The notes beneath the pieces are model-generated. The model was not told where the DNA came from. It searched no databases and saw nothing but the letters and a program-made list of their open reading frames with translations. The translations under genes and the position numbers were made by a program. This document shows, piece by piece, positions 1,098 to 15,190 of a stretch of DNA of 45,812 nt. The stretch's first letter is position 1; each line of letters starts with the position of its first letter. The stretch comes from Bryobacterales bacterium. Its GTDB lineage: Bacteria; Acidobacteriota; Terriglobia; Bryobacterales; Bryobacteraceae. The DNA lies in contig PMTT01000949.1 in assembly GCA_003167275.1 (NCBI GenBank), positions 1 to 45,812 of the forward strand, in the 5' to 3' direction.

Positions 1098-4000
1098 ATG
1101 TGTAAGCGCAATGTAAGAACCCGGCTGTTCCTTGTAGGATGTGTACTGCTTGCGGCTCAAACTGTCTTCGCGCAAACCGTGGGGTCGATCGCGGGCGAAA
1201 CCAGGGATGCCACGGGGGCGAGCGTACCAGGGGCGAGCATCAGCCTGACGAACATCGCCACCAACGCAGTGCGAATGGCGGCCACCAACGAGGCTGGCGC
1301 CTACGCCTTTCCTTCACTTGCCCCCGGAGTCTATGTGGTCAAGGCTGAGAAGCCCGGCTTCAAGACTTTGATCCGGAATCAGGTGGAAATCCAGGTCCAG
1401 CAGAATGCCCGCATCGATTTTGAGTTCGAAGTCGGGCAACTCTCCGAATCCGTCGAAGTGAAAGCCAGCGCGGCCATCGTCACCGAGAACGCCACCGTCG
1501 GTACGGTGATCGAAAACAAGCGCATCGTCGAGTTGCCGTTGAACGGGCGGAACTATCTCCAGTTAGTCTCCCTGGCGCCGAACGTATCGACCGGGTTCTC
1601 CACCCAGGGGCAGGCGGGAGCGCGCCAGGGTGGAATTCGCTCTTCCCAGACGATTTCGGTCGCCGGCCAGCGAACCAATTTCAATCACTACACCCTCGAC
1701 GGGGTGGAGAACACCGACCCGAACTTCAATACCTTTGTGGTCATGCCTTCGGTGGACGCGCTCCAGGAATTCAAGGTGCAAACCGGGATTTACCCCGCGG
1801 AGTTCGGCCGCATGACTACGCAGATCAACGTACTGACCAAGTCGGGCACAAATCAGTACCACGGCTCGGCGTTTGAGTTCCTTCGCAACGACAAACTGGA
1901 TGCCACCAGCTATGCGTTCACCGCCCTCCGGCCCGTCAAGGACCCGTTCAAGTGGAACCAGTATGGATTCACCCTGGGCGGACCGGTCTGGCTGCCCAAG
2001 ATTTTCAACGGCAAGGACAAGCTGTTCTTCATGGGGAACTACGAGTCGTTCCGGAAACGGGGAAGCACCACCGGCCTGTTCTCCCTGGCGCCGGCAGCAT
2101 TTCAAAGCGGAGACTTTTCCACCCTGGCCAATCGAATCTACGATCCTCTTTCCCGAGCTCAGGCGGCGGATGGAAGCTTCACGGGGACGCCGTTTCCAGG
2201 CAACGTCATTCCGGCCAACCGGATCAGCCCGGTTTCGAAAAAGCTCCTCGAGTTCTACAACACCCCCACCTTGCCGGGGGTAACCAACAACTTCGTGCAA
2301 GCTTTGGGCCGGCCGCAGAATCGCGATCAGTTTATCCTGCGCCTGGATTATGTCGAGTCCGCCAAATCCACCTGGACCGGCAGGTATAGCTGGGGCGACG
2401 AAAATGAGTCCAGCCCCGGCCTCAACCAGAACGGCACAAAGCTGGTCACCAACCTCGAACAGTATATGGGAACCAACACCCGGATTCTCTCGCCTTCCGT
2501 GGTTACCGAGACGCGCTTCGGCTACCCCCGCTTTTACAATTCAGTAGGAACGCTGCTGGCCTTCCAGCGCAACGTGGTGGACGAGTTGGGAATCCCCGGC
2601 CTGAAAGGCGGCGACCCGGTATCCTGGGGCATTCCCGCCATCAGCATCCCCAACTACCAGGGCATCAGCGACAGCACCGACGGACCGTTCGAAAACAAAA
2701 ACAGCACCCTACAGTTCCTGAACAACACTTCGATCGTGCGAGGCAAGCACGCCTTGCGGTTCGGCGGGGAGATCCGCAAAGATCAGTTCAACCAGGTGGG
2801 AAACCAGTATGGCCGCGGCAGCTTTACCTTCTCGACCACGCCGACGCAGGATCCCAAGGCGCTGACGGTCAGCGGCCTGCCCCAGCAGGGCGACGCATTC
2901 GCCTCCTTCCTGCTTGGGAACGTCACGCTGACCGAAGTGGCCGCGCAGATCGCCGCCGTTCAGTTCCGCGCCACCGACTTCGCATTCTACCTGGATGACG
3001 TTTGGAAACTCAGCCCGACGCTCACCATCTCCATGGGACTGCGTTACGAGAACAACCCGCCGTGGGAAGACATATCCGGCAACCTGACCACCGTCTTCTT
3101 CAACGCGTTCGACAACACGCCAAACGTCACCGACCAGAGCCGCTACCCGGTCTTTCTCCGCCAGGGAAAAAGCTCGGGCGACCCGTACGCGGGACTGAAG
3201 GTTCGTTGGCCCAACATTCCGCTGGTTCAGGATGGTCGGCTGGGCAACCGCCTCGTGCAACGCGACAACAACGATTTTGCCCCGCGACTTGGAATCGCCT
3301 GGGCTCCCAACTCCAAGTGGTCGATTCGTACCGGCGCGGGCATGTTCTATAACCAGGACCAAGGCAATCCACGCTTCGACGTGGCGCGGAACGCAGCCGG
3401 GCCAACCCGCAACGACGACAACCCGAACTTCCCGGCCGAAACCTGGTCGAACGGTGCGGCCAGCCTGGCCGGCTCAGTCGCCAATATCCTGACGCCGCAG
3501 GCCTTCTCGAATAAGTTCGACCGCCGCACACCGTACACGTATCAATGGCTATTTAACGTGCAGCGGCAGCTTTCGACGGACCTCGTATTCGAAGCCGGTT
3601 ACCTCGGCTCCGTCAGCCGCCATCTGGAATCCTACCGGGGGGTGAGCGCCGCTGTGCCTGGTCCAGGTACCGTTGCCAGCCGTTCGCCATACCCCAATTG
3701 GGGTCTCCTGGTGCTGGTGGAAGACGGGGGCCGCGGAAACTACAACTCGCTGGGAACCAAGCTGACCAAGCGCTACTCGAGTGGCTTGACGGCGCTGGTG
3801 TCTTACACGTGGTCGAAGTCGATCGACACCACCAGTGGAATCCGGACCTCCGACACGGACACCCTGTTCTCGCAGGACGGCCGGTGCATGCTCTGCGACC
3901 GCGGCCCGTCGGCATTCGACAACCGGCACCGCCTGGTGATCTCCGGCCTGTACGACCTTCCGGTGGGCAAGGGCAAGAAGGTAAACATCGGCAATCCCGT

Positions 4001-4457
4001 CCTCAACGCGGCGATCGGCGGCTGGCAGTTCGGAGGCATTTCCACCTGGCGCTCGGGATTCCCCATCAACCCCACCGCCGGCGTGAACCGCGCCAACACC
4101 AACATCAACAACGACCGTCCGGACGCCACGGGGCAAAGCGTACACGTCGACACCTCGACCACCGAACGCTGGTTCAATACGGGGGCGTTCGCCCTGCAGC
4201 CGCTTTATCAGTTCGGCAATGCCGGGCGGAACTCCGTCACGGGACCTGCTGGCTTCATTCTGGATTCGAACCTGCAGAAGAACTTCCGCCTGAAGGAATC
4301 GCACGAAATCCAGTTCCGGTGGGAGGCGTACAACCTGCTGAATCATCCTGTGTGGGGATTCCCGACTACGAATTTCAGCAGCCCGAACTTCGGCCGGATC
4401 ACTTCGACGGCGATCAGCATGCGCCAGATGCAGTTTGCTCTCAAGTACGTATTCTGA
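1098..4457 (+). CDS. TonB-dependent receptor, Oar-like, with N-terminal carboxypeptidase-regulatory-like domain
   Basis: 1119 aa; signal peptide; GSIAGETRDATGASVPGASISLTNIATN...GVYVVKAEKPGFKT domain; plug-like ELPLNGRNYLQLVSLAPNV; large beta-barrel ending in LKYVF. Upstream GGAGG. Confidence 0.93.
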   Translation: MCKRNVRTRLFLVGCVLLAAQTVFAQTVGSIAGETRDATGASVPGASISLTNIATNAVRMAATNEAGAYAFPSLAPGVYVVKAEKPGFKTLIRNQVEIQVQQNARIDFEFEVGQLSESVEVKASAAIVTENATVGTVIENKRIVELPLNGRNYLQLVSLAPNVSTGFSTQGQAGARQGGIRSSQTISVAGQRTNFNHYTLDGVENTDPNFNTFVVMPSVDALQEFKVQTGIYPAEFGRMTTQINVLTKSGTNQYHGSAFEFLRNDKLDATSYAFTALRPVKDPFKWNQYGFTLGGPVWLPKIFNGKDKLFFMGNYESFRKRGSTTGLFSLAPAAFQSGDFSTLANRIYDPLSRAQAADGSFTGTPFPGNVIPANRISPVSKKLLEFYNTPTLPGVTNNFVQALGRPQNRDQFILRLDYVESAKSTWTGRYSWGDENESSPGLNQNGTKLVTNLEQYMGTNTRILSPSVVTETRFGYPRFYNSVGTLLAFQRNVVDELGIPGLKGGDPVSWGIPAISIPNYQGISDSTDGPFENKNSTLQFLNNTSIVRGKHALRFGGEIRKDQFNQVGNQYGRGSFTFSTTPTQDPKALTVSGLPQQGDAFASFLLGNVTLTEVAAQIAAVQFRATDFAFYLDDVWKLSPTLTISMGLRYENNPPWEDISGNLTTVFFNAFDNTPNVTDQSRYPVFLRQGKSSGDPYAGLKVRWPNIPLVQDGRLGNRLVQRDNNDFAPRLGIAWAPNSKWSIRTGAGMFYNQDQGNPRFDVARNAAGPTRNDDNPNFPAETWSNGAASLAGSVANILTPQAFSNKFDRRTPYTYQWLFNVQRQLSTDLVFEAGYLGSVSRHLESYRGVSAAVPGPGTVASRSPYPNWGLLVLVEDGGRGNYNSLGTKLTKRYSSGLTALVSYTWSKSIDTTSGIRTSDTDTLFSQDGRCMLCDRGPSAFDNRHRLVISGLYDLPVGKGKKVNIGNPVLNAAIGGWQFGGISTWRSGFPINPTAGVNRANTNINNDRPDATGQSVHVDTSTTERWFNTGAFALQPLYQFGNAGRNSVTGPAGFILDSNLQKNFRLKESHEIQFRWEAYNLLNHPVWGFPTTNFSSPNFGRITSTAISMRQMQFALKYVF

Positions 4458-5269
4458 TGAGACTCTCGTTCCGAACGGCGATCCTTCCGACCCTGATCCT
4501 CGCCTGCGCCGGCTCCGTGCCGGCGCAGGACAACGAGACCTGGCACGAGCCCTTCTCTCCCCACCGCGTGGTCGGCAACGTCTATTACGTGGGCACCAGA
4601 GGGCTCGCCTCGTTCCTGATCACCACACCCGACGGCCACGTCCTGATCAACAGCGGACTGAAGAGTTCCGTGCCCATGATCCGGGCCAGCGTCGAAAACT
4701 GGGATCACAACGCCGGCAGCGCCCTGGTCAAGCAACTGACCGGCGCGAAATACCTGGTCATGGAACAGGACGTGGCGGTCACCGAAGACGGCGGAAAGTC
4801 GGACTTCGAGTACGGCGCGATGCCCTCGTCCCTATACGAGCCGGCCAAGGTCGATCGAGCTCTTCACGATGGCGACGAGGTGAAACTGGGCGGGTCTACG
4901 CTGAAGGCCCATCTCACTCCGGGGCACACCAAAGGCTGCACCACCTGGACCATGACGGTTCAAGAGGGGGGCAGAAGCTATGACATTGTGATCGTGGGCA
5001 GCCCCAACGTGAACGCCGGCTACAAGCTGGTAAATAATGGCCGGTACCCGGGCATCGCGGAGGACTTCGCCCGCACGTTTCAAACGCTCAAGTCCCTGCA
5101 CTGCGACATTTTTCTGGGGGCGCACGGAGACTATTACGGGATGGAGGGCAAAGTTGCCAGGATGACCGCCGCCGCACCCGACGTGTTCGTCGACCCGGAC
5201 GGCTACCGTGCCTACGTGTCGGAGAGACAGCAGGCATTCTTGGCGGCGCTCGAACGGCAAAAGAAGTGA
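4457..5269 (+). CDS. Subclass-B3-like metallo-beta-lactamase-fold protein, apparently missing the HxH part of the HxHxDH motif
   Basis: Start MRLSFRTAILPTLILACAGSVPAQ overlaps the TBDR stop (TGATG). HRVVGNVYYVGTRGLASFLITTPDGHVLINSGLK, LTPGHTKGCTTWTM and FLGAHGDYYGM are B3-like. The provided ORF 3698-5269 includes an out-of-gene 5' extension. Confidence 0.82.
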   Translation: MRLSFRTAILPTLILACAGSVPAQDNETWHEPFSPHRVVGNVYYVGTRGLASFLITTPDGHVLINSGLKSSVPMIRASVENWDHNAGSALVKQLTGAKYLVMEQDVAVTEDGGKSDFEYGAMPSSLYEPAKVDRALHDGDEVKLGGSTLKAHLTPGHTKGCTTWTMTVQEGGRSYDIVIVGSPNVNAGYKLVNNGRYPGIAEDFARTFQTLKSLHCDIFLGAHGDYYGMEGKVARMTAAAPDVFVDPDGYRAYVSERQQAFLAALERQKK

Positions 5270-5375
5270 AGGGGTGGCGAGGATGAGCTGTGTGGATCGG
5301 AATGGGCCGGACGAACGTGATTCTGGACAAGCTGCTGGCCGCGGGGGAAGGCAAGGCCATGATCGTGGTCGATGG
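5268..5375 (+). pseudogene. Remnant of a PF00756-type (enterochelin/feruloyl esterase-like) esterase
   Basis: GGEDE (one frame) followed by WIGMGRTNVILDKLLAAGEGKAMIVVDGN (another frame). This resembles the '[26 protein letters not shown]' segment of these esterases. No other parts of the gene are present. Confidence 0.55.
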
Positions 5376-5430
5376 AAACCAGCGCCGTGGGTGGCCCACT
5401 CGCCGAGCCAAGCGGGATTCCCGGCCTAAG

Positions 5431-5682
5431 CACTCATCGTCTCCTGGTAGCAGCAGGCGGCCCAGGAGGATTTACGCCCGATTCCTCGGGTTGCTCCACC
5501 ATCGGCATGGCCGTGGCCCGTGGCATGCCGGGCAACGCCAGCAGAGGAACCGCCGAATTCTCCAAACTCTGGCGAAAAACTCCCTACGAGGCCGTCGCCG
5601 CTTCCCCATGGTCTTTTAGGACTCACGGGTTTTTGCTTCCAAGTCCTCCTGCACGCCTGCTGCTACCAGGAGACGATGAGTG
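5431..5682. repeat. Inverted repeat: arms 5431-5470 and 5644-5682, about 173-bp spacer
   Basis: The reverse complement of 5431-5470 (tcctcctgggccgcctgctgctaccaggagacgatgagtg) matches 5644-5682 (tcctcctgcacgcctgctgctaccaggagacgatgagtg), including a 29-nt perfect block. Confidence 0.9.
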
Positions 5683-6300
5683 CCGAACGGGCCGAGATTC
5701 TGCTTACCCGTTGGCGGCTTTCGCCATGCCCTCGGCCGCTGCCGGCGTCGTGGTGATCTTCCGCTTGTGGTGCGATTTCGGGTTGAACGCGTTTTTCCAC
5801 CCTTCCCGCACAACGTTATTTGCCCTCCATCACTGTGCTGCCGGACGTTGCGCCAGCGCAGATTGCAGGCTTCGGAGACACGCAAACCGGCCCTGTGAAT
5901 CAAACAAAGCAAAAGCTGGTCGCGTTCTTTGGCATCCGCCGCCAGGAGCCTGCCAACCTCGGCCTCACCGACAATCCGTTCCGCCCAGACGTTGCTCGTA
6001 AGCTGGTAACGTCAGCTCCTCAGCGGGATTGGCGGGCAGATAGCGCGTCCTGCAACAGAATGAAAACAAGCTGTTTACGGCTGCCAGCGCCCGAACACGA
6101 GAGACCGGAGCCAGTTCGTCACTGATTAGGGATTGGTCGAAATCCTGGAGGTCGCCAAGTCCGATGTCATTCAGCGGCTTGCCGGCGAACGCCATGAGGC
6201 GGTCAGCATCACGCCGGTAGCCTGAACGCGTATGGGTGCTGGTCTGGCTGTTCAGCCAAAGCCCCAAAGTGGTTGAATCGGAAGGAGTTGAGGATAACAT
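5616..6300 (-). pseudogene. Degraded tyrosine recombinase/phage integrase (XerC/D-like)
   Basis: N-terminal SAM-like region in 5965-6300(-) (HTRSGYRRDADRLMAFAGKPLNDIGLGDLQDF...RVRALAAVNSLFSFCCRTRYLPANPAEEL). A frameshift leads to WAERIVGEAEVGRLLAADAKERDQLLLCLIHRAGLRVSEACNLRWRNV...QITLCGKGGKTR. The C-terminal catalytic part is absent. Confidence 0.8.
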
Positions 6301-6742
6301 TACCGTCCTTATGGAGTGCTCCAGTCAATGTCATGCCTCACACTGTTGTGGAGAAGGTTTGCGAATCGCCCCGAGCTTAATCATGCCGCAATTTTCGATT
6401 TCAGCGATTCGAATGCCCTATGAGAAGACGCTATGTGCGTCGGCGGAATTGTTCCTTTTTTGACGCGACAGTAAAACCGCGCGGAAGATCGACAGACCCG
6501 AATGGCTTTTAACAAAACTTAAAGATCCGCGCTCCCCAATTCGGCTACTGTAATCATATTGCAACAAAAGGTAAGTTCATGCCTCCGGATGGGAAGGATA
6601 CCGGGGAACTTCTTAGCTCAAGCCAACGAGAGCTCCACGAATTGGGTCCGCCCACTTCTATCGGCAATGAGGGCATCGCAGAGACCCGTTACGCTGAGAA
6701 TCGTCACAACGGCTACAGACCGAATGGCAGATTTGATGTGTC

Positions 6743-8671
6743 GTGGATAAGGTCATGTTAAAAAAACAGACTTTCGCTTTGAGCATCGGAGTGATTCTCG
6801 CAGCGACCGGCGTTATGCAGAGCCGCCGTTCGCTTCGGGAATGGCCCATCAAAGATTTGGCGCGAGCCGTGCTCACGGGCCCACGAGTAACGGCCACGAA
6901 CGGAATTACGGGAAACGCCTTCTGCCACTCAGCGAACTTCGCCGGCAGCTGCAGGCTCACCCGTTTCAAACCAAGTCCGCCAACGTGCAAAGCTTTACAG
7001 CCGGGCTTGCCTGGAAGGCTCCTTTGCGAATGGGAGTTGGCTGGCAGTGGCCACCCGGATCGCCGGCCTACGAACAATCTCGCCGTGGTCCCGATTATCA
7101 TCAACACGGGCGCCGCGCTGTTTCCCACACTCCTGGCTTTCCTGGCGAATATCGCGGCGCTCGTATTCAATCCAAAGGCGTTGGGCCGTTTGTTGCGGCA
7201 ACGTTGGCGGTTGGCCGTCGCAGTCACTGCGTCGCTGGCCTTCGTCATTTTCGGCGCGGTGCCGCTGTTGCGCACTGCTCCTCTATCCCGGACTACTGCC
7301 TCGGCGGGGGCACTGTCCGCCGGACAAATCAATTGGGCGAAAGTGGCCGAAGACCTGATTGCTCAGGAGAAACTGCACCAGACAGCTGCCGTACTTGCGC
7401 CGGCGCCGGCGTCGCCCGCGCCCGCCAATGCGGTACCGGCCGACGCACCGGCTAGGACAGGGCAAGTAGCTCCCGCCTCCGTTTCCGATGCGGGAATGTC
7501 GCCTTCAGGACTGACGCCCCTGTGGAGGTTTCAGCCCGAGGATGGGCTATTCCTCGGCAAACCGGCGATCGCCGGAAAGCGAATATACGTCTCCGCCAAC
7601 CAAACGGATCTCGGTGGCTACACCGGTCTTCTGGCCAGTCTCGATCTCGATACGGGAAAGCCGCTCTGGCAGGTGACAGAAATAGGAAAGGACGCGTTGC
7701 CACCGTTCTTCAGTTCTCCTGCGGTGACGGCAGACGGAGAGTTCGTGATCATCGGGCAAGGACTGCATCAGGATCGAGATAGTTCGCTCCTTTGTTTTGA
7801 AACTGCGACCGGCAAATTGCACTGGGCAGTTAAGACCCAGCTGCACATCGAGTCGTCCCCAGCCATTTTCGGGGACATGGTAGTCGTCGGGGCGGGCGCG
7901 ATCGAGGGCAACGACGGCAAACCCGTCGGCGATCCGGGATACGTCTTCGCCGTGCGGATCTCGGACGGCAAGCAGCTCTGGAAACAGGCCGTCAATGATC
8001 CCGAGAGCTCACCTGCGATTGACGACGCCGGCATAGTCTACATCGGAAGTGGCTTCAACGGCAAAGCAGTCGTCGCGCTACGCAGTGGTTCCGACGACGA
8101 ATTGCGCGAGCAGAAACTCGACCGGCTTCTCTGGCGGACCGCCCTTGCCTATCCGATTACGGCGCCGGTAACGCTAGCGGGCGACTTGGTAATCGTCGGA
8201 GGGGGAAATGGCGACATGGTCCACTCCGATCCCAATCCGCAGGGTTTGGTCGTCGCACTGAACCGAAAGACCGGCCAGGTCGTTTGGCAGACGAAGTTCG
8301 AAGATGCGGTCCTGGGACGGATTGCCGTGCGCGACGGCATGATGCTCTGTCCTTTGCGAACCGGTGAAGTAGCGGCGCTCTCGGTTGCGGATGGCCATAT
8401 TCTGTGGCGTTCCCGGGTGAGCGGGACAGCCCCGGTGCTCGCCGGCGGCGCCCTCACAAAAGAGAGGGCGTATGTGGTCAGTAGCGACGGATATCTGGTG
8501 GCGTTCGCCGCCTCCACCGGAAAGATGCTGGAAAAGGTTTATCTCAACGATCAGGGGAAGCCGGGCTCGGGGTTATCGATTTCGTCACCGCAGGTTGTCG
8601 GCAACCGGATCGTCGTCGGCAGCGAAACCGGCGGGTTGCGAGCGTTCTTGGGAACCGGTAACGCCAAATGA
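6743..8671 (+). CDS. Membrane-anchored PQQ-type beta-propeller repeat protein (start uncertain; possible GTG at 7085)
   Basis: N-terminal hydrophobic segments (AVVPIIINTGAALFPTLLAFLANIAALVF...RLAVAVTASLAFVIFGAVPLL), then repeated blades such as LLASLDLDTGKPLWQVTEIG, LLCFETATGKLHWAVKTQ, LVVALNRKTGQVVWQTKFE, VAALSVADGHILWRSRV. Confidence 0.82.
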   Translation: MDKVMLKKQTFALSIGVILAATGVMQSRRSLREWPIKDLARAVLTGPRVTATNGITGNAFCHSANFAGSCRLTRFKPSPPTCKALQPGLPGRLLCEWELAGSGHPDRRPTNNLAVVPIIINTGAALFPTLLAFLANIAALVFNPKALGRLLRQRWRLAVAVTASLAFVIFGAVPLLRTAPLSRTTASAGALSAGQINWAKVAEDLIAQEKLHQTAAVLAPAPASPAPANAVPADAPARTGQVAPASVSDAGMSPSGLTPLWRFQPEDGLFLGKPAIAGKRIYVSANQTDLGGYTGLLASLDLDTGKPLWQVTEIGKDALPPFFSSPAVTADGEFVIIGQGLHQDRDSSLLCFETATGKLHWAVKTQLHIESSPAIFGDMVVVGAGAIEGNDGKPVGDPGYVFAVRISDGKQLWKQAVNDPESSPAIDDAGIVYIGSGFNGKAVVALRSGSDDELREQKLDRLLWRTALAYPITAPVTLAGDLVIVGGGNGDMVHSDPNPQGLVVALNRKTGQVVWQTKFEDAVLGRIAVRDGMMLCPLRTGEVAALSVADGHILWRSRVSGTAPVLAGGALTKERAYVVSSDGYLVAFAASTGKMLEKVYLNDQGKPGSGLSISSPQVVGNRIVVGSETGGLRAFLGTGNAK

Positions 8672-10284
8672 TCGTTTCCAAGAAGTACACCCGATCGCTC
8701 GTTAACTGCCGCGACTCCGCGCTGGTCGGAGGTAAGGGCGCCAACTTGGGAAGGCTACTGCGTGCGGGTTTTCAGGTGCCCGGCGGTTTTGTCGTAAACA
8801 CCCACGCCTACCGCCTGGCATACCTCTCGCGGGCCCAGTACGGCAAGGCCGTGTCGGTTCCGTCGGAGGTTGCGGAGGAAATCCGGTGCCGGTATGAGCA
8901 GATGGGGCGCGGGACAGTCGCGGTTCGCTCCTCGGCTACCGCAGAGGATCTGGCCGCGGCGTCGATGGCGGGCCAATGCGAGACTTTCCTGGATATCAAT
9001 GGCGAGGAGGCCCTGCTGGCGGCCATACAGAACTGTTGGGCGAGCCTCGACACCGAGCGGATTCGCGCTTATCTGCATGAGCACGGGATCGATCGGTCCG
9101 TGGTTGCCATGGCGGTAGTGGTGCAGCGGTTGATCCCGGCGGATGCGGCGGGGGTGATGTTTACCGCGGATCCCAATGGCGACCGGCGCAAGGAGATGCT
9201 GATCGAAGCCAATTGGGGCTTGGGCGAGACGGTCGTGGGCGGCCGTGTGCAGCCGGATGTGCTCCGACTCGACGGCGTCACGGGCCGCGTTTTGTCCGCG
9301 TCGATTGCCGACAAGACAGTTTATCTATCGGCGGGCAACGTTGGGGAGAAGCCGGTAGAGGAGTCGCGCAGAAAACAGCCATGCCTGAACAGTCGGGATG
9401 TCCACAACTTATGGTTACTGGGTAAGCAGACTGAACATTACTTCGGTCCTCCGCAGGACATCGAATGGGCGATCCATGCCGGCAAATTGCATTTGCTGCA
9501 GGCCCGGCCGATTACGACCCAAAGCGAGATAGAGGCGAGGCAAGAAGTATTAACTTCGACACGCGAGCACTTGCGGAACGAAATCGCGGGGCAACGCGGA
9601 CCATGGGTACAGCACAACCTGGCCGAAACACTGCCGCATCCCACTACACTCACGTGGAGCGTGATCAAGCCGTTCATGGCCGGGGCTGGGGGCTTCGGCG
9701 CCATGTACCGGCGCGCGGGGTTTGAGCCGTCTCCGGCGATTGCCCAGGATGGGTTCCTCGAACTCATCGCCGGCCGGGTCTACATGGATGTAACGCGGTC
9801 GCCGCAAATGTTCTGTCAAGACTTTCCGTTCGTGTACGATTTGCAGAAGCTGCGCCGCGATCCCGACGCCTCCCAGAAACCTCCAACTTTGCCGCACGGA
9901 TCATTTTCGACGCGCCTGAAGGCATCGAGCTTCCTTGCCAAGGCCGGCTCGACCATCAGGTCCCTCTCCGAGAGTGCCGCCACGGACTTTCGCCAGAAGA
10001 CCGTCCCGGAGATCGAGTCCTGGGTCGGGCGATCGCGCGGGCTGAACCTGTCCTCGTTGTCGGTGGAAGATCTGATTGCAGTCTGGTGGGAACGTGAGAA
10101 GCAGGTGCTGGACGTGTTCGGTCCGGAGACGCTCCTGCCAAGCTTGGTCTGCGGCATGGTGTGGGCCGATCTCGAGACCTTCCTGCACGAGAATTTCTGG
10201 GACGAGCATGCGGATGCACTATTGCGACTGATAGGCGCCGGACTGCACGGTCATTGCGAACGCCGAATTGTTCGAAGTTGGTAA
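8668..10284 (+). CDS. PEP synthase/PPDK-like, N-terminal ATP-grasp-type domain plus linker (5' part of a frameshift-split gene)
   Basis: LVGGKGANLGRLLRAGFQVPGGFVVNTHAY, GTVAVRSSATAEDLAAASMAGQCETFL, VVQRLIPADAAGVMFTADPNG, LIEANWGLGETVVGG, LLQARPITT. Overlaps the upstream stop by 4 nt (ATGA). Confidence 0.85.
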   Translation: MIVSKKYTRSLVNCRDSALVGGKGANLGRLLRAGFQVPGGFVVNTHAYRLAYLSRAQYGKAVSVPSEVAEEIRCRYEQMGRGTVAVRSSATAEDLAAASMAGQCETFLDINGEEALLAAIQNCWASLDTERIRAYLHEHGIDRSVVAMAVVVQRLIPADAAGVMFTADPNGDRRKEMLIEANWGLGETVVGGRVQPDVLRLDGVTGRVLSASIADKTVYLSAGNVGEKPVEESRRKQPCLNSRDVHNLWLLGKQTEHYFGPPQDIEWAIHAGKLHLLQARPITTQSEIEARQEVLTSTREHLRNEIAGQRGPWVQHNLAETLPHPTTLTWSVIKPFMAGAGGFGAMYRRAGFEPSPAIAQDGFLELIAGRVYMDVTRSPQMFCQDFPFVYDLQKLRRDPDASQKPPTLPHGSFSTRLKASSFLAKAGSTIRSLSESAATDFRQKTVPEIESWVGRSRGLNLSSLSVEDLIAVWWEREKQVLDVFGPETLLPSLVCGMVWADLETFLHENFWDEHADALLRLIGAGLHGHCERRIVRSW

Positions 10285-12274
10285 AGGTAAACGAAGCCTG
10301 GAGGCGTGGTTGGTAGTCCACGGGCACCGCGGTGCGGGTGAATTTGACTTGGCTGCGCCACGCTGGCGAGAGCAACCCAACCTGCTGCGCGACTTGGCGG
10401 CCCGGCTGGCCACGGGAGAACCGCCATTGGAGCGCTTCCAGCGCGGAAAGGATGTGGCGGCGGCCGAGGCCGCGAAGCTGCGCGCCCAATTGACCCCGGG
10501 GCGTGCGAGCGAATTCGATCGCCGCCTGGAGCTAGTCCACCGCTTTATGCCTTTCCGGGAAGAGGGGAAAGACTACCTCGTGCTTGGCTACGATCTCCTA
10601 CGGGACGTGGCCCTGGAATTGGGGTGCCGGCTGGATGTGGGCGAAGGTGTATTCCACCTGACCCGGGATGAGATCTTCGATGCGTTGCGCGTGGGCTTTG
10701 CGCCTCACCACCTGATCGAGCAGCGCCAATTATGCTACCGCGCTGAGATCAAGCTCCCGCTGCCACGAGTGATCGACGGTGAGGCCATCGAGCGCCTCGG
10801 CGAACCGCCTGAGGTCGAAATAACGGCCGGCGCCTACCAGGCACTTTCCATTTCGGCTGGACGCGCATCCGGACCGGCGAAGGTTCTACACGAGCCGACC
10901 TGGACGGCGGACCTTGGCAGGGGCTATATACTAGTGTGCCCGAGCACGGATCCCGCATGGACCCCCTTGTTCGTCAATGCGGCTGGACTCGTTCTAGAGT
11001 GTGGCGGGGCACTTTCGCACGGAGCTGTCGTTGCCCGCGAGATGGGTTTGCCGGCCGTCGTCCTGGCCGACGCAACTCTTATCTTCCGAAACGGCGAACA
11101 GGTAGAGATCGACGGAAACAAAGGTCGAGTAGGCCGGCCGCAGAAAGACGCCGGCAAACCTGCCAATGTAGAGGTAATCGACCCCTCCGATACACGAATT
11201 CCACGAGCACTGATGCCGCCCCCTCCCGGTGAGAGGGACAGGCAGGCGGCGTCGTGGTGCAAGGCGGCACTCGGAATCTGGATGGTGTACCTGCTGGGCT
11301 TTTTCCTGCTGCCAAAAGCCTATGTCCAACGGCCATCTCTGCTCCTCTTGGATAACGTTCTGTGGCCAGTGGTTGTTGCTTTGGGCCGGCCGGCCACAGT
11401 TGCCGTCGCCGCCGCAGGCGTCGCTGCGATGACGCTGCTCGTGCAAAAGCTCATTACCAATAACGGCGCATTGGGGGAAGCGAAACGCCGGGCAGCGAAG
11501 CTGGTCCAACAAGCCAAGTCTCTTCCGGCGAACTCACCCAGACGGGAAGCCATGATGGAGTTGGCGGCACCCGTGAACGGCCGCCTTCTGAGGGCACGGT
11601 TGGTGCCTGTTTGTGTACTCCTGGGGTTTCTGATGATGCCATTGGTCTGGTTCAAGGACCGCATCGATCCGTCAGTGCCAGTTGCTGCCGCCGGGTCTGC
11701 TGTGCAGATTGTGGCTACCATCGATGGCGAGTGGACCAAGCCGGTTCGCCTTGAGGTTCCCCCCACCGTGGCCTTGGACGAAACTACGGTTGCTTCCCGC
11801 ACGCTACCACCGCTCCGTAAAACCTTGGAACACTTGCTGACGATCTACCGCGAGCCAACGAGCAACGCTGGCGGCCCTTGGGAACTCCAGGTGGCACCAG
11901 ACGTCGCCAGACTGCAGACCGTGAACAATCTCAAGAATTACCTGGACGCCGGCCTGCCACCACAAGGTATAACGTGGACAATCCGTCCAACATCAGGCGC
12001 ATCCGACCGTTTTCCGGTGAGTGTAGTGGCTGAAGGGCATCCGCCGGTTGAGCTCACGGTTGTGCTTGGGAACCAATACCCTCCCGGCTCGCTTGCCGCC
12101 GCCGGTGGGGCGGATACGCCGGTCAAAGAAGTGCGTGCCGTCTATCCCAATTCTGCTACGAAGCAGGTTTTCTGGCGTCCGTTCGGAGCCGTGGATATCG
12201 GCTGGTTGGCGGTGTATCTTCTCACCTACCTTCCAGTGCTTGTCATTCTCCAGGCATTACTGAAGGTTGCCTGA
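10268..12274 (+). CDS. PEP-utilising enzyme mobile (phosphohistidine) domain fused to an EMC3/TMCO1/DUF106-like membrane module (3' part of a split gene)
   Basis: VCPSTDPAWTPLFVNAAGLVLECGGALSHGAVVAREMGLPAVVLAD is the swivelling His domain. It is followed by multiple TM segments around a charged helix (MTLLVQKLITNNGALGEAKRRAAKLVQQAKSLPANSPRREAMMELAAPVNGRLLRARLVPVCVLLGFLMMPLVWF). Confidence 0.78.
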   Translation: MFEVGKGKRSLEAWLVVHGHRGAGEFDLAAPRWREQPNLLRDLAARLATGEPPLERFQRGKDVAAAEAAKLRAQLTPGRASEFDRRLELVHRFMPFREEGKDYLVLGYDLLRDVALELGCRLDVGEGVFHLTRDEIFDALRVGFAPHHLIEQRQLCYRAEIKLPLPRVIDGEAIERLGEPPEVEITAGAYQALSISAGRASGPAKVLHEPTWTADLGRGYILVCPSTDPAWTPLFVNAAGLVLECGGALSHGAVVAREMGLPAVVLADATLIFRNGEQVEIDGNKGRVGRPQKDAGKPANVEVIDPSDTRIPRALMPPPPGERDRQAASWCKAALGIWMVYLLGFFLLPKAYVQRPSLLLLDNVLWPVVVALGRPATVAVAAAGVAAMTLLVQKLITNNGALGEAKRRAAKLVQQAKSLPANSPRREAMMELAAPVNGRLLRARLVPVCVLLGFLMMPLVWFKDRIDPSVPVAAAGSAVQIVATIDGEWTKPVRLEVPPTVALDETTVASRTLPPLRKTLEHLLTIYREPTSNAGGPWELQVAPDVARLQTVNNLKNYLDAGLPPQGITWTIRPTSGASDRFPVSVVAEGHPPVELTVVLGNQYPPGSLAAAGGADTPVKEVRAVYPNSATKQVFWRPFGAVDIGWLAVYLLTYLPVLVILQALLKVA

Positions 12275-12469
12275 ATGAGGTGTTTTAGAAACTCCGATGC
12301 GACAGTTTTTGTGGAGAACCGTATGAATGATCAACGTCCAACGAATGGCCCTAACCGGGCGTGGCCCGGCCGGCTGGCAAAGCCCGCGACAGACCTCTCG
12401 CCCAAACTAGAACTTCACCCCAATATACAAAGGCTCCCCACCAAGACCGTCATGCAAGGAAGAAGACAT

Positions 12470-13207
12470 ATGCTCGCCGGAATTTGCCTTCTCATGTCTT
12501 TCGCGATCCCGGTCATTGCCCAACCTGCAACTCAGCCAACTCCAGCCACACCAGCGGCGCCCCCGCCGGCCGGAGCCAGCGCCAAAGCTCCCGACGCGGC
12601 GAACGGCGGGATCGAAGGCGTCAAGGCGCTGATCAAGGCGACCGACGAGGAATGGAAGGTCATCGGCCCCAAGTTGCAGGCGTTGGTCGCAGCCCGGCAG
12701 ACGGTGACGACATACACGACACCCGCTGCCGGCCGAGGCGGCTTCGGCGGCCCGGGGTTCCCGAATATGGGCACCGACAGTTTTGCGGGCCCGAGCAATA
12801 ATAATGGCCCCGGAGGACGCGGGCGCGGCGGTTTTCCCCCTGGTTTCGATCCAGCGAATCCCGCCGCGGGCCGTGGAATGCCCCCTGGCTTCGATCCGGC
12901 GAATCCCGCCGCGGGCCGTGGATTCCCGCCTGGTTTCGACCCGGCCGCGATGGCGGCAATGCGCGGCGGCCGCGGAGGGCCGGGAGGCTTTGGCGCCGAC
13001 AATGCCGTCAGCAGTGCTTTAGCGGAACTGAAAAAGACCGTGGACGACCCGACCACTCCCCCTGCGCAGGTGAAGGACAAGTTGGCCGCGGTTCGCGGCG
13101 CACGCCAGCGGGCGGCGCTCGATCTCGCCACAGCGCAAAAGGCGCTACTCGCGCTGTTGACCGCAGACCAGGAAGTGATACTGGTGAGCTTAGGTTATCT
13201 CGACTAA
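12470..13207 (+). CDS. Secreted small helical protein with Gly/Pro/Arg-rich repeat linker
   Basis: ATG at 12470 preceded by GGAAGAAG; signal peptide MLAGICLLMSFAIPVIAQ. Helical ends (DEEWKVIGPKLQALVAARQTV ... VKDKLAAVRGARQRAALDLATAQKALLALLTADQEVILVSLGYLD) flank a repeat linker. The ORF opens at 12275 in the same frame. Confidence 0.75.
   Translation: MLAGICLLMSFAIPVIAQPATQPTPATPAAPPPAGASAKAPDAANGGIEGVKALIKATDEEWKVIGPKLQALVAARQTVTTYTTPAAGRGGFGGPGFPNMGTDSFAGPSNNNGPGGRGRGGFPPGFDPANPAAGRGMPPGFDPANPAAGRGFPPGFDPAAMAAMRGGRGGPGGFGADNAVSSALAELKKTVDDPTTPPAQVKDKLAAVRGARQRAALDLATAQKALLALLTADQEVILVSLGYLD
12836..12950 (+). repeat. 45-nt tandem repeat (PPGFDPANPAAGRGx), about 2.5 copies, in coding sequence
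   Basis: Units start at 12836, 12881 and 12926; near-identical by direct reading. Confidence 0.9.
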
Positions 13208-13243
13208 GAGCGCCCGCCATCCACGGACTCGCAATCGAAAAAC

Positions 13244-15190
13244 ATGGAATTTTGGAAACGGAATATGAAGCTCTCAAATCATCCAAGTCTCAAGCGCCAG
13301 CTTTTTCGTCTGGCGCTCGCCTGTTCATGTCTGGGCATTGTCACTCAGATCGGAGCCTACATCGACCTGGCTCCCACTCTCAGCAAGGTCATTGGCGATG
13401 CACAGAAGGTCGCTCTCGTCGAGGTAGCCGGATTCAACCAGACCACCCACGTCCTGACTCTGAAGGAAGTCCGCGTCCTGAAGGGCGCGGCGAACCAGAC
13501 TCCCGTCCTTCACAATGTGGGGTCGTCCGACGGCAATATCGTTCCGCCCGCGATTGTCCAATGGGCTGAACCCGGCAACAGGGGTGTCCTCTTCTCTACG
13601 CGGGCGACTTCGCTGCTCTGTTTTGGCAACGGATGGTATCAGGCTAAGTCTTCCGGTGGTGAATGGAAGTTGGGAGTCGACCGCGCCGATCTTCCGCTGG
13701 CTTATTACGGTTCGATCTCGCGTCTCACGGATGCGATCGCCACGATGCTCGCCGGTGGGACGGCGACCCTGACCATGGTCCGGCACGGCAACGACGGTGA
13801 GAGTGCCAGCTTCGATCTGGCTCTGAACCGCATGAATCTCCCGAGTGTGATCCGCGTTCAGCGCATCCGGGCCACCATGTCCATGCCTGGCATGGTAATG
13901 GCCGTGTCGACGAATCCCGTTTACGTGATCGGGGCGGGCCTGATCGGCGAGGAGGAGATCCCTACGCTTTTGCAGCGTCTATCGTCCCCGGATGCCGTGG
14001 CACGGGCCGAGGCGGCGGAGGATCTGCAGCAACTTGGCCGCAAGGCCGGCACCGCCGAGGCTTCCCTGGTCAAACTCCTAGCCGACCCGGCCGAGCGTGT
14101 ACGTATTTCGGCGGCCTCCGCCTTGCTTCGTATCACCGGCGAAAACGACGAGGCGGTCAATGTGATCACGCGCGGATTGGCCAGCGCCGATGCCTCCGTG
14201 CGGCGCGCGGCTGCCGATGCAGTCGGCCGGGCGGGCCAAGGCGCCGCTCCGGTGGTTGGCCGGCTCGCCGCCGTGCTCCAGGATCAAAACATTCAAACTC
14301 GCCGGTCCGCGGTTCGGGCTGCAGCCACCCTCGGGCCCATCGCCACAAGTGCAGCCGGCGCTTTAGTGCCGTTGCTGAAGGAACCCGGGTTGATGATTGA
14401 GGCGGCGGACGCTCTCGGGCGGATCGGGCCGGCCGCGCGTCCGGTTCCCGCGCCTCTGGCTAAAATGCTGGACGCCGATCAGCCGACAGCGGTGCGCATG
14501 GCTGCCGTTCGTGCGATGTCACAGATTGGCGGACCAGAAGCCCGGCCCGCGGTGGATTACATCATTAAGACTCTGCCCGACATGGAGGAGATTGACGCTT
14601 ACAACATGGAGATCTATCTGGCCTTGCTGGGACCGATGGCGGCTGACGCAATCCCCGTTTCGCAAAGCACAAAACTCGCCAACCCGGTATTGCCGACGGC
14701 CACCCTGTGGGCGATCAAGTCCGACAGCCTTCCCTGGCAGTTTACGGGTAATCGTGGCAGGGGCGGTTTCCCCGGGTTTGGCGGTGGGCCTCCGGGAATG
14801 GGTGGCCCTCCGGGAATGGGTGGGCCTCCGGGAATGGGATTTGATATCAATTCCACCATGTACGTTGCCTATTTCCGCGAGTTGGGGGAGCGCCTGCGCC
14901 CGGTCGCAGTGATGCTCTTGAAACAACTCCAGGAGGGCAAAGGAAACGACACTCCAGCGTGGGGTTACAAATTGCTGGCCTGTGCTCCTTCTGAGTCTAT
15001 CGCGCAACTCTCGGCATTGCTCGCTTCCGATAACCTGGCGACTCGCGAGGGTGCGACGGTTGCAATCGGCTACATGGGGAACGCAGCTTTTCCGGCTCAG
15101 GCCAAGCTTCAGGCTGCACTCGACAAAGCTCCGACGGAGCGTGAGAAGCGGCTCGTCGAATGGGCCTTGCGCGAAATCTCAGCCGACTAG
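13244..15190 (+). CDS. Exported HEAT-repeat protein
   Basis: Signal-like N-terminus; HEAT-like repeats (LLADPAERVRISAASALLRITGENDEAV, GLASADASVRRAAADAVGRAGQGA, VLQDQNIQTRRSAVRAAATLGPIA, LDADQPTAVRMAAVRAMSQIGG). Confidence 0.85.
   Translation: MEFWKRNMKLSNHPSLKRQLFRLALACSCLGIVTQIGAYIDLAPTLSKVIGDAQKVALVEVAGFNQTTHVLTLKEVRVLKGAANQTPVLHNVGSSDGNIVPPAIVQWAEPGNRGVLFSTRATSLLCFGNGWYQAKSSGGEWKLGVDRADLPLAYYGSISRLTDAIATMLAGGTATLTMVRHGNDGESASFDLALNRMNLPSVIRVQRIRATMSMPGMVMAVSTNPVYVIGAGLIGEEEIPTLLQRLSSPDAVARAEAAEDLQQLGRKAGTAEASLVKLLADPAERVRISAASALLRITGENDEAVNVITRGLASADASVRRAAADAVGRAGQGAAPVVGRLAAVLQDQNIQTRRSAVRAAATLGPIATSAAGALVPLLKEPGLMIEAADALGRIGPAARPVPAPLAKMLDADQPTAVRMAAVRAMSQIGGPEARPAVDYIIKTLPDMEEIDAYNMEIYLALLGPMAADAIPVSQSTKLANPVLPTATLWAIKSDSLPWQFTGNRGRGGFPGFGGGPPGMGGPPGMGGPPGMGFDINSTMYVAYFRELGERLRPVAVMLLKQLQEGKGNDTPAWGYKLLACAPSESIAQLSALLASDNLATREGATVAIGYMGNAAFPAQAKLQAALDKAPTEREKRLVEWALREISAD
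14786..14839 (+). repeat. 18-nt tandem repeat (GPPGMG), 3 copies, in the HEAT-repeat gene
   Basis: gggcctccgggaatgggt / ggccctccgggaatgggt / gggcctccgggaatggga. Confidence 0.9.

Follow-up and report, generated by a model that had tools for sequence, protein, structure and literature searches.

In published descriptions of the Oxa1 superfamily, DUF106 is archaeal, EMC3, TMCO1 and GET1 are eukaryotic, and bacteria are represented by YidC (PMC8887752, PMC8675477). Lipid scrambling is a further activity of insertases in this superfamily (PMC10491306). Dikinases of the rifampin phosphotransferase (RPH) and PigC/RedH type consist of a PPDK_N domain, a middle domain and a C-terminal phospho-histidine domain, and have no phosphoenolpyruvate (PEP)/pyruvate barrel. 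Here we describe a gene unit that brings the two families together on a 45,812-nt stretch of DNA (contig PMTT01000949.1, positions 1 to 45,812, assembly GCA_003167275.1) of a Bryobacterales bacterium; the whole stretch is called the window, and all positions are given in its coordinates unless a locus is named. The unit comprises a PQQ-type beta-propeller protein, an RPH-type dikinase and an EMC3/DUF106-like membrane module. The components all belong to known families; the unit itself is apparently undescribed so far and hints that bacteria have a specialised membrane machine unlike those described in them before. The open-access papers searched, which leave out most subscription journals, contained no bacterial fusion of DUF106 with a dikinase.

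Conservation of the gene unit

A scan with the first dikinase open reading frame (ORF) of the window identified three acidobacterial contigs (77-78% identity; loci L036-L038), together with a Phycisphaerales contig (54%) and a contig of a second planctomycete (45%). In all five the PQQ gene is located just upstream and the gene order is the same. Among 392 Planctomycetota genomes searched by profile, six carry dikinase-EMC3 fusions, two of these with more than one copy or fragment, and two have a separate EMC3-like gene of about 285 codons directly after the dikinase gene; in one planctomycete class this split form is present in four of nine genomes. Among 195 Verrucomicrobiota genomes (sampled from the phylum of a Kiritimatiellae genome) seven had matches: three fusions, two of them accompanied by a split copy, three more split forms and one variant (L131). 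The fusion was found in one of 365 sampled Acidobacteriota genomes, that of the window, in addition to the three contigs mentioned above.

Annotation with hidden Markov models (HMMs) confirmed the order PQQ protein, dikinase, EMC3-like module for fused and split forms alike, wherever the flanks are long enough (L078, L081, L082 and L096 end at contig edges); in L079 the PQQ-like neighbour is on the opposite strand. The PQQ and dikinase genes overlap by 4 nt in 12 of the 18 loci measured. In the verrucomicrobial variant (L131, positions 4241-6931) the PQQ gene is followed by an RPH middle domain and the EMC3-like module without the ATP-binding and phospho-histidine domains, the latter protein having no Pfam match at E<=1e-4. 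Single-sequence searches of the family and phylum genomes with the transmembrane (TM) module and its partners returned only the window itself, a first contig scan with the C-terminal half of the dikinase-EMC3 stretch gave no matches, and a plasmid search yielded generic PEP-utilising domains only. One further match, L070 (G707), was judged false, as it is an unrelated 867-aa ORF.

In a tree of the dikinase part, rooted at the midpoint only, the fused and split forms are separated with full support. Planctomycetota and Verrucomicrobiota are mixed in both forms, and Acidobacteriota form one tight clade, a pattern that fits horizontal spread.

The identity of the components and their synteny are thus well supported, and the three parts very probably form a conserved unit. 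The first-pass annotation of the window, made from the sequence alone, had proposed that recurrent synteny in distant phyla would argue for a functional unit, and such synteny exists for the three parts in Acidobacteriota, Planctomycetota and Verrucomicrobiota. It had also named an enzyme without TM segments, unlinked to the partner genes, as evidence to the contrary. The split clade does have enzymes without TM segments, but their next gene is the one for the EMC3-like protein, and the link is therefore strengthened.

The features of the unit and the adjacent genes in the window are as follows:

7085..8671, plus strand: PQQ-type beta-propeller protein, predicted to be membrane-anchored (mechanical ORF 6743-8671; Pfam PQQ_2, 4e-34)
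8668..10284, plus strand: RPH-type dikinase, first part, PPDK_N ATP-binding domain and start of the middle domain (PPDK_N, 6e-78)
10233..10252, plus strand: frameshift site, net 11-nt deletion relative to L037
10250..11194, plus strand: RPH-type dikinase, second part, rest of the middle domain and swivelling phospho-histidine domain (PEP-utilizers, 6e-21; alignment; motif)
11195..12274, plus strand: EMC3/DUF106-like membrane module (AlphaFold2 (AF2) model, profile match to 5C8J, hhalign)
12275..13207, plus strand: Gly/Pro-rich secreted protein, 310-aa ORF, acidobacterial accessory (homologues in L037 and L038)
13244..15190, plus strand: exported HEAT-repeat protein, conserved N-terminal domain at about 13319-13756 (Pfam HEAT_2, 7e-22)

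The arrangement read in the first pass was confirmed: all ORFs are co-directional at the coordinates given then, the ATG at 8668 overlaps the upstream stop (8671) by 4 nt, 12275, the position next to the 12274 stop, is the first of the 310-aa ORF, and 36 nt separate 13207 from the start of the HEAT gene at 13244. The ORF starts in the program-made list are mechanical. Comparison with relatives shows that homology of the PQQ protein starts near 7085 (GTG), not at 6743. In the Gly-rich protein the signal peptide starts near 12452-12470, which is also where the gene likely starts; it need not abut the 12274 stop.

The dikinase

Pfam and NCBIfam identified only PPDK_N and PEP-utilizers in the dikinase. 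The C-terminal PEP/pyruvate barrel is absent, and the identity as PEP synthase proposed in the first pass was therefore rejected. The order of PPDK_N, middle domain and phospho-histidine domain without a barrel, followed here by the membrane module, is the RPH-type layout. The enzyme shares the ATP-binding and phospho-histidine domains with PpsA but lacks its PEP/pyruvate-binding TIM barrel and has the RPH-like domain order, whereas it differs from RPH and PigC/RedH in its membrane module and in its conserved operon with a PQQ protein. The best NCBIfam matches were PRK06241, RPH and PEPS models, all with scores far under the equivalog cut-offs (for RPH, 241 and 157 bits versus 999). Judged by these profiles, the dikinase is RPH-like in layout but is not a rifampin phosphotransferase. 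Among solved structures, the closest in sequence bear the name phosphoenolpyruvate synthase and match over the ATP-binding domain.

The catalytic Lys, Arg and His motifs are present (GGKGANL, AVRSSATAED and GGALSHGAVVAR, the last containing the phospho-histidine codon at 11018-11020), and the ATP and His motifs are retained by nearly all copies of the family.

The membrane module

The TM helices predicted for the module agree with its first-pass description as a membrane module: TM0 at 11231-11308, TM1 at 11387-11455, a cytosolic helical hairpin at 11462-11617, TM2 at 11621-11662, a beta-rich periplasmic insert at about 11687-12184 and TM3 at 12200-12262. The AF2 model (pLDDT 85) contains TM0, one more helix, TM1, the helical hairpin, TM2, the beta-rich insert and TM3. 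The predicted secondary structure and hydropathy thus follow the DUF106/EMC3-type order of the Oxa1 superfamily, that is TM1, cytosolic hairpin, TM2 and TM3.

When a profile built from eleven fusion modules was searched against all PDB sequences, it had a single significant match, the archaeal MJ0480 (5C8J, E=3.2e-7). With two split-clade proteins added, the match to MJ0480 reached 8.7e-14 and TM3 was aligned collinearly; neither profile matched a YidC chain at E<=10 among the PDB sequences. The stand-alone split-clade protein of L079 exceeds the cut-off of Pfam EMC3_TMCO1 (PF01956; 32.7 versus 27.1 bits), and that of L082 falls slightly under it (25.5 bits). Alignment by hhalign of the module set (A4) with nine acidobacterial EMC3-like proteins (A5), all matching PF01956 at E<=0.01, gave 96% (E=2.3e-9). 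The assignment of the module as a distant homologue of archaeal DUF106/EMC3 within the Oxa1 superfamily is well supported by these profile comparisons, and the earlier EMC3/TMCO1 guess was sound.

In most copies (T/S)(D/N)(Q/N) comes after a basic residue close to where TM1 ends on the cytosolic side, a feature shared with EMC3/TMCO1/DUF106 proteins such as MJ0480. Unlike these, the window family is bacterial, is fused to a dikinase or encoded in one operon with it, has TM0 in the fusions and carries a large beta insert after TM2 and before TM3; the sequence of a nanoarchaeal DUF106 protein (L055) can be read as having a smaller beta-like insert at this position. PF01956 matches in the phylum with frames of about 530 aa were mostly YidC and were set aside.

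A second type of EMC3-like operon is found in Acidobacteriota, where 42 of the 365 sampled genomes besides that of the window have an EMC3-like match. In 24 of 24 loci inspected (L083-L091 and L132-L146) a stand-alone EMC3-like gene of about 275 codons lies beside two to three type I phosphodiesterase (PF01663) genes, not dikinases. The pairing of dikinase and EMC3-like module is therefore specific.

The propeller, accessory proteins and predicted topology

The PQQ protein has a short N-terminal tail, TM helices predicted at about 7112-7168 and 7211-7267, and then the propeller. Its N-terminus is conserved across phyla as VVPI...GAAL.P...KP..L, where VVPI...GAAL.P... belongs to the TM helix and KP..L to a basic loop. 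The short tail, TM helix, basic loop and second TM helix therefore predict an N-out hairpin with the propeller outside. The stand-alone EMC3-like proteins have three TM helices and the fusions have one more in front, TM0; as exactly one additional membrane crossing is required to link an enzyme in the cytosol to a TM1 with an outside start, the fusion argues for an Oxa1-type orientation. The enzyme would accordingly be cytosolic and the propeller periplasmic.

The combination of an EMC3-type membrane subunit with a beta-propeller protein outside the cytoplasm recalls the eukaryotic EMC, by analogy only. A relationship of the propeller to that of EMC1 (PF25293) was considered and dropped: the window protein scores 27.3 versus 34 bits, and other family members scanned at E<=1e-4 have no match. 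No equivalents of EMC2, EMC5 or EMC6 were identified.

The first-pass annotation had counted four proteins in the unit. However, HEAT repeats and the Gly-rich protein were found only with the acidobacterial copies and are an acidobacterial add-on. The Gly-rich protein has no Pfam or NCBIfam match and homologues only in L037 (two) and L038. Only the N-terminal domain of the HEAT protein is wider: it was detected by HMM near the operon in Planctomycetota and Verrucomicrobiota, often before FG-GAP repeats. The proposal that an envelope unit containing an EMC3-like part is conserved was thus largely right, but wrong in detail as to "PEP synthase" and "four-protein". In L037 (11671-17152) the pair of Gly-rich and HEAT genes is present downstream of the unit in two tandem copies.

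The frameshift in the window copy

The first pass had read 8668-12274 as a single gene; however, this stretch consists of two ORFs in different frames, 8668-10284 and 10268-12274. In four relatives (L037-L040) it is uninterrupted and forms one ORF of 1175-1221 aa. Compared with L037, a net 11 nt are missing from the window at about 10233-10252. This frameshift may have arisen by mutation or in the assembly, and no second copy in a close relative that could decide between the two was found. Unless the assembly is at fault, the fusion encoded in the window is probably inactive.

It is a realistic possibility, though one we lean slightly against, that the window copy is either a decaying pseudogene or an artefact of assembly, so that the local cluster is not a working complex as it reads. 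This possibility concerns the local copy only and is compatible with any mechanism for the family. Besides the deletion that disrupts the fusion, it is favoured by the lack of a copy among the sampled family or genus mates. Yet the catalytic motifs are kept in both halves, the identity to intact relatives is about 77-79%, the flanking genes are open, a split enzyme is possible, and intact relatives occur in three phyla.

Possible mechanism and alternatives

Our preferred reading, held tentatively, is that the EMC3-like module may be a dedicated insertase or anchor for the propeller partner, coupled to the cytosolic dikinase. The dikinase would bind ATP in the cytosol and phosphorylate a hydroxyl substrate bound in its middle domain, transfer from ATP being expected because of the ATP-binding domain and the swivelling His. 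It would be fused to the EMC3/DUF106-type module with its periplasmic beta domain or, in the sister clade, encoded directly before it, and the upstream, translationally coupled gene would provide the PQQ propeller, with an N-out TM hairpin of short tail as its anchor. Short-tailed N-out TM segments are of the kind inserted by Oxa1-superfamily proteins. The module would place and hold the propeller partner; in the resulting transmembrane complex the dikinase would lie inside, and the propeller and N-domain repeat proteins would lie outside. Insertion or anchoring, complex formation and topology are all steps that we infer. In the variant L131 the PQQ protein, middle domain and module are kept without the kinase domains, which suggests that the membrane/propeller pairing can outlive the kinase chemistry. 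Bolder, and unlikely in our view, is the idea that this is the first bacterial EMC3-type insertase machine, in which an ATP-dependent dikinase, covalently joined to the module, would drive or gate its action on dedicated N-out substrates; the dikinase-linked machine would then be one of two bacterial EMC3-like systems, the other being coupled to type I phosphodiesterases.

Several observations speak against the insertase or anchor reading. The window module alone has no Pfam match, including none to PF01956 at E<=10, and is therefore classed with the Oxa1 superfamily as a distant homologue and kept out of PF01956. The hhalign comparison with three archaeal sequences was weak (13%), and the larger sets were used instead; Foldseek searches of the PDB with AF2 models of the full module and of TM1-hairpin-TM2 gave no significant match. 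YidC is expected in these bacteria too, and we know of no bacterial EMC3-like protein shown by assay to insert anything. Finally, the retention of ATP and His motifs in nearly all copies indicates that catalysis matters and that pure insertion would be insufficient. The same retention favours the main rival, a membrane-coupled phosphotransferase, which we regard as possible but somewhat doubtful. Here the module would be an anchor or a lipid-access path with a scramblase-like groove, not an insertase, the dikinase would phosphorylate a lipid, glycolipid or membrane-delivered sugar, and the propeller would be a periplasmic binding or sensing partner. The RPH-type middle domain for a hydroxyl substrate, the phosphodiesterases of the other EMC3-like operon (likewise phospho-ester enzymes), the lipid scrambling by Oxa1-superfamily insertases (PMC10491306) and the pectate-lyase-like genes adjoining L076 and L077 are all in its favour. 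However, L131 has lost the ATP and His domains and kept the rest, the substrate is hypothetical, and a plain anchor would not need the conserved full hairpin and beta insert. A chance neighbourhood of unrelated genes could be suspected from the patchy distribution, with the fusion in only one of 365 sampled acidobacterial genomes, but it is contradicted by synteny and is highly improbable: the order is the same in three phyla, in fused and split forms and with overlapping genes, and the other acidobacterial EMC3-like genes have phosphodiesterase neighbours in 24 of 24 loci.

Genomic setting

The window had been described as a glycan-degradation locus interrupted by the unit. The region 17283-45255 is a long series of large secreted-type ORFs that read, as in the first pass, as putative glycoside hydrolases and related enzymes. 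The nearest relatives of the unit (L037 and L038) are not obviously in such loci. In two similar planctomycete loci (L076 and L077) LacI-type regulator genes and pectate-lyase-like genes lie beside the unit, a hint at a plant-polysaccharide setting in some hosts. Elsewhere in the window, a subclass B3 metallo-beta-lactamase-like gene (4457-5269; 272.5 bits versus an NCBIfam cut-off of 240) adjoins a gene for a large TonB-type outer-membrane protein (1098-4457).

Implications

DUF106/EMC3-like proteins are now found in three bacterial phyla, where they belong to two kinds of conserved operon, each of which has its own constant partners. The occurrence of fused and split forms provides a gene-fusion argument that the ATP-phosphotransferase and the insertase-type module act together. 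This raises the testable question whether bacteria have dedicated, client-specific insertases (or scramblases), possibly controlled by phosphotransfer.

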